Virus record (IMG/VR): IMGVR_UViG_3300029787_000088
Span: 1 to 33,331 of that record
Length of the DNA stretch: 33,331 bases
Source: a virus
Direction: 5' to 3' (one strand)
Shown here: one piece after another, positions 18,081 to 23,441 of the stretch
Layout: every line of letters starts with the position of its first letter
How positions within the stretch are numbered: position 1 is the stretch's first letter
The notes under the pieces: generated by a model
Told to the model about the DNA's origin: nothing
Database searches by the model: none
What the model saw: only the letters and a program-made list of their open reading frames with translations
Program-made: the position numbers and the translations under genes

Positions 18081-18300
18081 CGAATGGTAACGGCTCCTGG
18101 GTATGAGCCTTGATAATAACTGCCCGGGACAACTACAGGTTGAACTTGGAATTAAAGCCATGCAACCTGTACTGATCCCTGGTCTATTAGCTATCCGGGT
18201 CGCGCCCGTACCGTTGATGGACCTGGGATCAGTGGGCCCTCGATAGAGGCTAAGCCCTGGTGCACCGGTAAACAATTGCCGCTGGGCTTCAACACCCGCT
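18069..18300 (+). ncRNA. Candidate structured RNA element (chain of hairpins)
   Basis: Successive helices, all directly visible: 18069-18077 with 18082-18090 (9 bp, one G-U, stop codon TAA in the loop); 18092-18096 with 18105-18109 (5 bp); 18134-18142 with 18163-18171 (9 bp); 18171-18184 with 18220-18233 (13 bp around one T-T mismatch); inside it 18196-18199 with 18205-18208; 18238-18241 with 18246-18249; 18252-18257 with 18284-18289. The stretch is much richer in G+C than surrounding DNA and has no coding signal. It may be a 3' UTR structure of the 17814 gene or a separate RNA; helices would also form on the minus strand. No known RNA class recognised. Confidence 0.6.
18129..18142. repeat. 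Inverted third copy of the CAACCTGTAGTTG element
   Basis: ACAACTACAGGTTG is the reverse complement of the core at 17599-17612. Here it forms one arm of a 9-bp hairpin with CAACCTGTA at 18163-18171, so it has been built into the structured element. Confidence 0.6.
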
Positions 18301-18303
18301 GGT

Positions 18304-18331
18304 CGAGCTTCAAGCTTCAAGCTGCAAGCTT
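18304..18331 (+). repeat. Short CAAGCNN heptamer array
   Basis: Four adjacent 7-mers: CGAGCTT (variant), CAAGCTT, CAAGCTG, CAAGCTT. They end inside the -35 box of the GP88-family gene. Same unit as the longer array at 19072-19171. Confidence 0.7.
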
Positions 18332-18361
18332 GACAGGTGACAAGGATTTATGGTATAGGAT
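18330..18361 (+). promoter_or_regulatory. Promoter for the GP88-family gene
   Basis: TTGACA (18330-18335), 18-base spacer, TATAGG (18354-18359) within TATAGGAT, the same element as at the minus-strand promoters. AAAGGAG lies just downstream, so the leader is short. A heptamer array overlaps the -35. Confidence 0.55.
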
Positions 18362-18376
18362 TATAAAGGAGAAATT

Positions 18377-19009
18377 ATGAATACAAAAGAAGCGTTAAAA
18401 ATTATCGGAGGCCTTAGTAAGCCTTCTAAGATGCCTGGATGGGCGTATGGATTACCTGCTAAAGAATGCAAAACAGGTTCCAAGCTGGTGAAGGTTAAGG
18501 GCAGCGTTTGCGAAGGTTGTTACGCTCTCAAAGGCTGCTATGTTTTTAAAGTTGTGCAGGATGCGCAGTATAGAAGACTAAAGGCCATCAGGTCACCACT
18601 ATGGACCGGAGCAATGGCAGCGTTAATCAACAGTAAGAAATCAAAAGAATTTAGATGGCATGACTCGGGCGATGTTCAGGACGAAGAACACCTGCTCAAG
18701 ATCTTTGCAGTTGCAGGGTTGACCCCGAAGGTCAAGCATTGGATGCCAACACGAGAAGCATGGGTCAAAGCCTTCCTGCCTCTATGTCCCAAGAATTTAG
18801 TGATCAGGTTCTCCGTCCCGATGGTGGACCAATCCAGGCACAAGGCGCCCAAAGAGTGGAGAAATACTTCTACAGTCTCAAGTGATTTAAATAAAACTTT
18901 TACAAGTGAGGGCCATTTCTGCCCTGCTCCAAAACAAAACAACGAATGCGGAGATTGCCGGGCTTGCTGGGACGCTAGAATTAAAAACGTAGTCTATGGC
19001 AAGCATTAA
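18377..19009 (+). CDS. GP88-family phage protein
   Basis: 210 residues. 'GGLSKPSKMPGWAYGLPAKE', 'CKTGSKLVKVKGSVCEGCYA' then 'LKGCY', 'FRWHDSGDVQDEEHLLKIF', 'KHWMPTREAWVKAFLP', 'NLVIRFSVPMVDQ' and a C-terminal 'CPAPKQNNECGDCRACWD' make up the 'gene product 88' family known from mycobacteriophages and others. The Cys pairs (C-x-x-C-Y and C-x-x-C-x-x-C) could hold a metal. 'RWHDSGD' is the family's best-conserved block. No activity is known to me. It has its own promoter and AAGGAG site. Codons are richer in G+C than in neighbours, hinting at acquisition. Confidence 0.8.
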   Translation: MNTKEALKIIGGLSKPSKMPGWAYGLPAKECKTGSKLVKVKGSVCEGCYALKGCYVFKVVQDAQYRRLKAIRSPLWTGAMAALINSKKSKEFRWHDSGDVQDEEHLLKIFAVAGLTPKVKHWMPTREAWVKAFLPLCPKNLVIRFSVPMVDQSRHKAPKEWRNTSTVSSDLNKTFTSEGHFCPAPKQNNECGDCRACWDARIKNVVYGKH

Positions 19010-19176
19010 TGTGGTATCACCCCAAGTACTACAAAGAATTGAAAAAGATTCGGAAAGAGTTTGAGAGGCAACAAGCGGCAAGCGTCAAGCGCCAAGGTTC
19101 TCAAGATGAAGGAGGCAAGCATCAAGCTGCAAGCGGCAAGGTTCAAGCTTCAAGCCGCAAGCGTCAAGCTCCTTGA
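19009..19176 (+). CDS. 55-residue protein ending in heptamer-encoded tail
   Basis: The start overlaps the GP88-family stop by one base (TAATG). It opens MWYHPKYYKELKKIRKEFER and continues into a Gln/Ala/Ser/Lys tail ('QQAASVKR', 'HQAASGKVQASSRKRQAP') encoded by the CAAGCNN array. The first 20 residues look like a real helical protein; the tail is the in-frame reading of the repeat. Coupling and the sensible N-terminus support it. Function unknown. Confidence 0.5.
   Translation: MWYHPKYYKELKKIRKEFERQQAASVKRQGSQDEGGKHQAASGKVQASSRKRQAP
19072..19171 (+). repeat. CAAGCNN 7-bp tandem repeat array
   Basis: Four units at 19072-19099 (CAAGCGG, CAAGCGT, CAAGCGC, CAAGGTT), a 16-base interruption, then eight back-to-back units at 19116-19171. 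The first five bases are nearly fixed (two units have CAAGG); the last two vary. It overlaps the end of the 55-residue gene on the plus strand and of the nuclease gene on the minus strand. A 7-base unit read in triplets gives a 7-residue period. Confidence 0.85.
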
Positions 19177-19465
19177 TTACCTTCCCCTCATAAAGTTTTA
19201 CTTGGTTAAGGGAGAGGGCCTTAACCATAATAAATGTATTCTTCGGATGTACTAGATGAAATGAAAATTGATGTGGAGAAAAGCGAACTGAGTTTCCTCG
19301 TGTTACTTTTAATTCTATAGTGAAAAACTGGCCAAAACTATTATACCCCAGTATATCAGGAGTCCCCCATGCAGCGCTATTTTCCAAGCGTGTAAATGAT
19401 AATTTGCAATTATTTTTAGTAGCGAACGTTTTAATCTCATGCCAAAATTTTCTCTCTGGTTTCAC
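19085..19465 (-). CDS. PD-(D/E)XK nuclease, VRR-NUC-like, with repeat-encoded tail
   Basis: 126 residues, GTG start. 'KFWHEIKTFATKNN' (conserved Glu), 'ENSAAWGTPDILGYNS' (catalytic Asp), 'FFTIELKVTRG' (E-x-K) and 'FSPHQFSFHLV' (Gln after the lysine) give the full order of VRR-NUC / Holliday-resolvase-like nucleases, which cut branched DNA or DNA ends. The last 30 residues 'LDACGLKLEPCRLQLDACLL' are encoded by the CAAGCNN array read antisense, giving a Leu/Cys heptad pattern. It is convergent with the plus-strand genes. The tail is not part of the family's usual length. Confidence 0.72.
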   Translation of the reverse strand: MKPERKFWHEIKTFATKNNCKLSFTRLENSAAWGTPDILGYNSFGQFFTIELKVTRGNSVRFSPHQFSFHLVHPKNTFIMVKALSLNQVKLYEGKVIKELDACGLKLEPCRLQLDACLLHLENLGA

Positions 19466-23001: not shown

Positions 23002-23290
23002 ATACTATCCTTTCTGTAAAAAACTCACGGGCTTTCATCCGAACATATTCGTGATCAAAACCTGCGTACTGACATACTAATGCAAAATCTCGATTAGGTT
23101 CTAAAAAATATTCTCTTGCGGATTGTGTAAATAAATTATTTCTAGGACTGCCGTAACTTTTATTACGCCAGTGTCTACCTACTGCATCTTCCAATGCAAC
23201 AATTAAAACATTCCTCCACAAAGATCTTATTGGATCTTTTGTTTCCCCGAAATTAAGAGCTTTTGGAAATAGACTTTGTTGATTTGCCAT
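22976..23290 (-). CDS. Conserved 104-residue protein, unknown function
   Basis: 'DPIRSLWRNVLIVALEDAVG' then 'GSPRNNLFTQSAREYFLEPN' and 'FALVCQYAGFDHEYVRMKAR', a compact helical domain common in marine phages. The 'VCQYAGFDHEYVR' block resembles a helix-turn-helix and could bind DNA, though this is inference. It overlaps the regulator gene upstream by 38 bases. Confidence 0.7.
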   Translation of the reverse strand: MANQQSLFPKALNFGETKDPIRSLWRNVLIVALEDAVGRHWRNKSYGSPRNNLFTQSAREYFLEPNRDFALVCQYAGFDHEYVRMKAREFFTERIVYEKNMQRM

Positions 23291-23441
23291 TTAATTTCTT
23301 AACTTTCTCTTCAACTAACATTCTAATTACCTGAGCTCTAGATAGAGTGATCCCTGGTGCTAGAGTCTTGGCTAGCTTATCAATGTTGCCATAGCAAGTA
23401 TGATCTACTGCGAGGCTTTTGTATTTGCTTATGTCTGTCAT
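23253..23441 (-). CDS. Ribbon-helix-helix DNA-binding protein
   Basis: 62 residues. 'YKSLAVDHTCYGNIDKLAK' (strand and first helix), 'LSRAQVIRMLVEEKVKKL' (second helix after the 'S-R-x-x-V-I' turn) fit the Arc/MetJ fold, a dimeric repressor type; the Ser/Lys tail is disordered. AAAGGA precedes the start. Its own promoter has TATAGGAT next to the -10, the element found at other promoters, so it may regulate itself and the switch region. Confidence 0.62.
   Translation of the reverse strand: MTDISKYKSLAVDHTCYGNIDKLAKTLAPGITLSRAQVIRMLVEEKVKKLNGKSTKSISKSS

Follow-up and report, generated by a model that had tools for sequence, protein, structure and literature searches.

Tandem arrays of the heptad CAAGCNN probably act as operators in HTVC027P-like pelagiphages, where they would control a small early-middle class of promoters together with an auxiliary block at convergent gene ends. 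The window analysed here, a stretch of 33,331 nucleotides, is part of a 47,836-base virus record that is related to Pelagibacter phage HTVC027P, and the terL of this record is 81.5% identical to that of HTVC027P. A sequence-only reading had described twelve CAAGCNN units at 19072-19171. These units are real, but they fall into two registers, blocks A and B, and a third block of the same heptad (block C) was absent from that reading. Exact two-unit matches to CAAGCNNCAAGC occur nine times in the window, all on the plus strand and all inside 18311-19169, whereas dinucleotide shuffles give a mean of 0.10 and a maximum of 1. A scan of the window's own record found arrays only in this same interval. 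The units had also been placed under the ends of two genes. This holds for the 55-residue ORF, which covers both A and B, and in part for the nuclease ORF, which covers B and about half of A.

Table 1. Positions of the heptad blocks, the adjoining promoter and the associated genes in the window.
Feature	Position	Strand	Remarks
Block C	18304-18331	+	CGAGCTT CAAGCTT CAAGCTG CAAGCTT; intergenic; flush with the -35 box
-35 box TTGACA	18330-18335	+	directly abuts the last CAAGC of block C
Predicted -10 box TATAGG	18354-18359	+	spacer 18
GP88-family gene, homolog of HTVC027P_gp33	18377-19009	+	PF17338, E 2.6e-27; synteny; behind the arrayed promoter
55-aa ORF	19009-19176	+	end lies over blocks A and B
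Block A	19072-19099	+	4 heptads, the last degenerate (CAAGGTT); partly past the nuclease stop codon
Spacer between A and B	19100-19115		16 bases, out of register
Nuclease-like gene	19085-19465	-	3' end carries block B; PHROG matches
Block B	19116-19171	+	8 heptads, one degenerate; within the 3' end of the nuclease gene
62-aa candidate binder	23253-23441	-	ribbon-helix-helix-like by eye; conserved N-terminal stretch

The gene order around the arrays recurs among relatives as GP88, small ORF, array, nuclease (on the opposite strand), p74, terS and exo; it is incomplete in some loci, where genes are missing or cut by contig ends. In the window, AAGGAG and then the ATG of the GP88-family gene (18377) come 3' of TATAGG, and terS starts 0.6 kb from block B. 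As the small plus-strand ORF, searched for as an HPxYY-type regular expression, was found in just 47 of 76 loci, it seems dispensable. The nuclease-like protein matched the PHROG families 'DNA helicase' (E 8.2e-8) and 'Holliday junction resolvase' (E 0.0017), with no Pfam match at E 0.01. Pfam scans of 60 window proteins revealed no helix-turn-helix or other regulator family above the cut-off.

Next, we focused on how widely these arrays occur. A nuclease search of viral contigs provided the best 80 of 110 related stretches (L006-L085), and these 80 stretches, HTVC027P (L086) and the window form our set of 82 loci, 81 of them homologs of the window's locus. In this set, all 217 arrays of at least three exact units lie on the gp88 strand. 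When one mismatch per unit is allowed, L022 and L024 each show one four-unit array on the other strand, and G313 shows one three-unit match there. In nine of ten phage records (G002-G009 and HTVC027P), the three-unit arrays are confined to at most 1.4 kb on one strand. The tenth, G001 (L028), is a 57,858-base contig with both ends within an array, which may be an assembly break or a physical end. The control pattern had no match in these ten records. Scanning for three units followed by TTGACA, a query that holds no gene sequence, yielded at least 119 new loci (L087-L205), and all 119 listed loci match at least one of nine hub-region genes, five of them through terL alone.

Of 297 Pelagibacter-family genomes, only two, including the chosen centre G010, had a three-unit array. 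In both, the array lies on a phage-like stretch with phage terL, terS or nuclease genes, and on these grounds we rejected a host regulator with arrays of its own in the host genome. The query of three units and TTGACA retrieved three stretches from a host collection of 84,980 species, of which L206 and L207 are phage-like. The third, L208, is from Cytophagales and has no hub genes; one of its CAAGCNN triples precedes TTGACA. The Cytophagales MAG G012 holds 11 CAAGCNN triples on both strands (contigs 126, 143, 191 and 192), and the reversed control also gave two matches in it; it possibly represents an independent heptad system. No three-unit arrays were found in 023Pt_psg01, DSL-LC04, G320 or HTVC023P even with one mismatch, and DSL-LC04 has a single two-unit match elsewhere in its genome. 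Several of these phages carry other repeats. G320 (L346) has a 57 bp direct repeat in three copies near the nuclease or terS genes, and HTVC023P (L254) has a 33 bp direct repeat in three copies after terS, as well as longer repeats after the nuclease homolog that were seen by eye only. In 023Pt_psg01 (L239), a 4-bp RAGC run was noted by eye; at this place, Tandem Repeats Finder reports no repeat at score 40.

The intergenic arrays, block C and, in some relatives, a block D further upstream, sit immediately 5' of strong-looking sigma70-type promoters. Across the 82 loci, TTGAC follows within 10 bp downstream of 63 of the 73 arrays (at least three exact units each) outside the convergent zone, the region between gp88 and the nuclease start, and of only 1 of the 144 arrays inside it; the promoters that these 63 arrays abut are predicted from sequence. 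With distinct sequences only, these figures become 56 of 65 and 1 of 114. Of the ten exceptions, three have TTGACA a little more distant, past an out-of-register CAAGC, and seven do not. The adjacency is also seen when TTGAC is sought upstream of gp88 without requiring arrays. Among 64 loci that contain the gp88 start and 200 bases upstream of it, 54 have TTGAC within 150 nt and ten have none. The former include 46 distinct upstream sequences, in which the gap between CAAGC and TTGAC is 0 in 39, 2-3 in five and 31 in one, with CAAGC absent in the last. In the four units nearest to TTGAC, the core holds 0.70-1.44 bits and the NN positions 0.03-0.40 bits, and the base that abuts TTGAC reaches 2.0 bits in these 46 sequences.

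The arrayed sites also differ from other TTGAC[AT] sites in what follows them. A -10 match of at least four of six positions was found for 74 of 77 arrayed and 99 of 202 non-arrayed sites, and for 66 of the 68 distinct promoters with an array, a spacer of 17 or 18 between the -35 and -10 boxes scored best (ties given to 17). The window promoter at block C escaped a simple promoter scan that requires the -10 box to end in T; its TATAGG ends in G. Arrayed promoters are common to GP88 and several unrelated short ORFs, many with a LKRIADALEEILRLVK-like motif, as classed with crude regular expressions. The larger block, at the convergent gene ends, has no promoter adjoining it. Promoter control alone does not account for this block.

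Published expression data bear on this promoter class. In HTVC027P, two intergenic arrays directly precede gp34 and gp33. These two genes make up 'extra cluster 2' in the RNA-seq study of Zhang et al. 2025 (PMC12753301), which is high at 6-9 hpi and stands, in that study's account of the clusters, outside the early, middle and late classes; its section 12 offers no promoter explanation for the cluster. The gene gp32 begins 2 nt past gp33 and is not named in the cluster in the corresponding passages (PMC12753301), and no array lies in the 500 bases upstream of gp30, a member of a different extra cluster. As gp33 and gp34 are adjacent and one promoter could explain both, their shared class is support for the link rather than proof of it.

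Parts of the array lie in coding sequence, which raises the question of what is conserved. The sequence-only reading had noted that the 7-bp repeat yields a tail with a 7-residue period, and the nuclease tail indeed follows the pattern L-D/E-A-C-x-L-x. In the last 30 codons of 62 distinct nuclease ends, CTT and TTG make up 89% of Leu codons against 34% in the body (the rest of the nuclease with terS and exo, these two not deduplicated), TTA 2% against 33%, and GCT 83% of Ala codons against 34%. The GCTTG units occupy all three codon phases (260, 226 and 174 units over all loci). At least three units lie in the last 31 codons of 64 of 65 distinct usable nuclease ends (median 8), and the 250 nt past the stop codon hold 0-11 units, with at least three in 49 of these 65 ends. 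Tails recur in many nuclease homologs and are absent from those of 023Pt_psg01 (51%), DSL-LC04 (32%) and record G320 (34%). That unit numbers might vary between relatives was borne out by L035 and L036: in block C, one of the two has a single, clean 7-bp unit more than the other, and their flanks are otherwise almost identical. Taken together, codon choice, the use of three phases, the clean 7-bp insertion and the tail-less homologs point to conservation of the DNA rather than of the peptide; the unusual protein tails are probably a by-product of the DNA units.

A peptide tail selected as a coiled coil or peptide contact, with the DNA repeat incidental, is therefore very improbable as an explanation of the arrays. 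Similar tails do recur in homologs (more weakly in L069, L072, L075 and L081), but their codons follow GCTTG, the arrays are present in intergenic DNA too, and three nuclease homologs manage without a tail; we rejected a selected protein tail on the codons and these homologs. Least probable of all is a neutral microsatellite that grows by slippage. The difference between L035 and L036 is what slippage would give, but the NN positions vary between units whereas the core is preserved among phages with nucleases only 51-60% identical to the window's, and the adjacency to the -35 box is kept as well. Of the two earlier proposals for the tails, that of a DNA binding array tolerated in them is well supported by sequence comparison, through the intergenic arrays at -35 boxes, the GCTTG-forced codons in three phases and the tail-less homologs. 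The other, that growth of the repeat extended two proteins, describes at most a side effect: a unit was gained or lost outside genes in one 7-bp step (L035 versus L036), but there is no sign of selection on the peptides.

The location of the arrays would suit an origin or packaging site, either iterons or a pac/cosB-type site for the small terminase, with the promoter adjacency secondary. Each genome has a single locus, close to terS and where the replication and structural modules meet; in related phages, direct repeats of other kinds are found near the nuclease or terS genes, and both contig ends of G001 lie in an array, which an assembly break could also produce. However, tight adjacency to TTGACA at promoters of unrelated genes is not expected for pac sites or iterons. 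The same heptad moreover occurs with small terminases only 46-58% identical to the window's (e.g., L064, L065, L067, L079 and L085), and changes in the GC skew of the window are only local and follow the coding strand. We consider such a site unlikely. An element that acts in the transcript, such as an antitermination or decay signal, is less likely still. The single orientation of the exact-unit arrays, the direction of blocks A and B, which run with gp88 transcription, and the covarying hairpins nearby are consistent with it, but blocks C and D, being 5' of the -35 box, fall outside the predicted transcripts of their own promoters, and their spacing to this box is nearly fixed.

The region also contains structured elements. 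One hairpin family, at 18172-18232 in the window and upstream of block C in relatives, has an outer stem CTGATCCCTGGTC/GACCTGGGATCAG, whose near-constancy is partly imposed by the search pattern, and a highly variable interior. It comprises 48 elements in 40 of the 82 loci; in 40 distinct interiors, 4.95 of the first six inner positions are paired, and when partners are shuffled the figure is 3.15, with a maximum of 3.70. A second hairpin, at 18136-18169 in the window and in L006-L024 and others (20 of 82 loci), has a conserved loop GAACTTRGAATTWAAGCYATG and covarying stems such as CAGGTT/AACCTG, GCGGGG/CCCCGC and GAGGGG/CCCCTC. Between gp88 and block A, L058, L060, L067, L085 and L086 have GAYCAGGYCATTAGC ... 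CGACGG ... GCGTGCRCCTGGTCC; by eye, the stems of this motif appear to covary, and it was not seen in the window's own stretch. At the Rfam gathering threshold, the window had no match, and scans of 11 and 20 relatives each gave one, to Flavobacterium-1 RNA (RF02976), in L086 (1047-1167) and L149 (1185-1303), at 90 and 93 bits respectively. In L086, this RNA sits directly upstream of an arrayed promoter.

If the arrays are operators, several copies of a small protein would bind side by side, one per 7 bp, and their binding would be cooperative. This could place unrelated genes, GP88 (gp33) and small ORFs like gp34, in a separate early-middle class. Repression or shut-off seems more likely than activation, as the -35 box has the full consensus TTGACA and the expression pulse is transient. 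The block between the ends of the GP88 unit and the nuclease operon would be an auxiliary site for the same protein, perhaps for looping, titration or as a transcription roadblock; each of these roles fits the position of blocks A and B at convergent gene ends. The protein tails would then be whatever the DNA units encode.

A possible but doubtful candidate for the binder, judged from its sequence, is a 62-residue phage protein that resembles ribbon-helix-helix (RHH) proteins. Over 23 aligned members, the stretch D3-V12 is invariant at nine of ten positions, and the structure model has helices at 14-27 and 35-55 (mean pLDDT 72, pTM 0.46). Six of the 23 members match a PHROG 'transcriptional regulator', weakly (best E 0.016). 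Pfam, PDB sequence and Foldseek searches gave no significant RHH match, hhalign of the family to CopG and Arc was not significant, and Foldseek and VIA-align, run on a single-chain model of a presumed dimer, listed no RHH fold. The protein is present in nine of ten array-bearing records, and the exception, G008, has its hub at a contig end. It had no match in HTVC023P or DSL-LC04, and the match in 023Pt is 32% identical (E 0.003). Thirteen of 20 further records match it, and three of the seven misses (G332, G333 and G334) have the hub near a contig end, judged by their coordinates. Arrays occur in 13 of 19 records that bear the protein. Five of the six others lack a nuclease match, and their locus is therefore probably off the contig. 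Record G320 is a counterexample: its protein is 67% identical, with nearly the same N-terminal stretch, and it has a nuclease homolog, but no CAAGC array was found with one mismatch allowed per unit. The distribution of the protein follows that of the arrays, as that of many genes in the clade may, and could reflect plain shared descent. The fuller reading, in which an RHH-like phage protein coats CAAGCNN at promoters and at convergent operon ends (there as roadblock or loop anchor), with the array in the nuclease frame and relatives that re-invented the site with units of 4, 33 and 57 bp, is rather unlikely.

Pelagiphage hosts, the SAR11 bacteria, are the commonest marine bacteria, and gene regulation in the lytic HTVC027P group has so far been undescribed. 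The promoter class that the arrays would define corresponds to an expression cluster for which the published RNA-seq study gives no explanation, and the arrays provide a concrete DNA bait for finding the regulator. They would also show cis-regulatory DNA dictating a protein C-terminus in three codon phases. Our search of the literature on pelagiphages, HTVC027P and heptanucleotide repeats, with subscription papers and supplements outside its scope, found no description of CAAGCNN arrays. The main text of PMC12753301 uses 'promoter', 'motif' and 'repeat' 0 times, and the searchable part of PMC9599517 uses 'promoter' 0 times and 'repeat' for Curli only. Heptad arrays at promoters are already known as a kind. 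As far as this search reaches, novelty lies in the sequence, in the phage group, in the constant abutment to the -35 box and in the presence of a block within a nuclease gene.

Upstream of the ctx promoter of the CTX phage, TTTTGAT heptad repeats are bound by ToxR. Like them, the CAAGCNN arrays are tandem heptads of variable number just 5' of a phage-borne promoter. The ctx repeats differ in that they are AT-rich, are bound by a host membrane regulator and serve a single promoter, whereas three-unit CAAGCNN arrays occur in just two of the 297 host-family genomes, both times on phage-like stretches. With replication iterons and terminase pac/cosB sites, the CAAGCNN arrays share the form of direct repeats at one locus near terS, some of them inside a gene; they differ in being fixed to the -35 boxes of several promoters. 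The omega/parS system of plasmid pSM19035, as outlined in the relevant passages of PMC9499535, has 7-10 unspaced, non-palindromic WATCACW heptads per site, which overlap promoters, and one small omega dimer binds each heptad, with high affinity for two or more. Similarly, the CAAGCNN arrays are unspaced tandem 7-bp repeats that overlap or abut predicted promoters. Their core is different, however, the exact arrays all point one way while the parS heptads, by that outline, have mixed orientations, no ParA family was found among the 60 window proteins scanned (14.5 kb of the record lie outside the window), and the RHH binder is here only a candidate. By analogy, omega/parS offers the closest architecture to that of the phage arrays, without a claim that they are members of this system.
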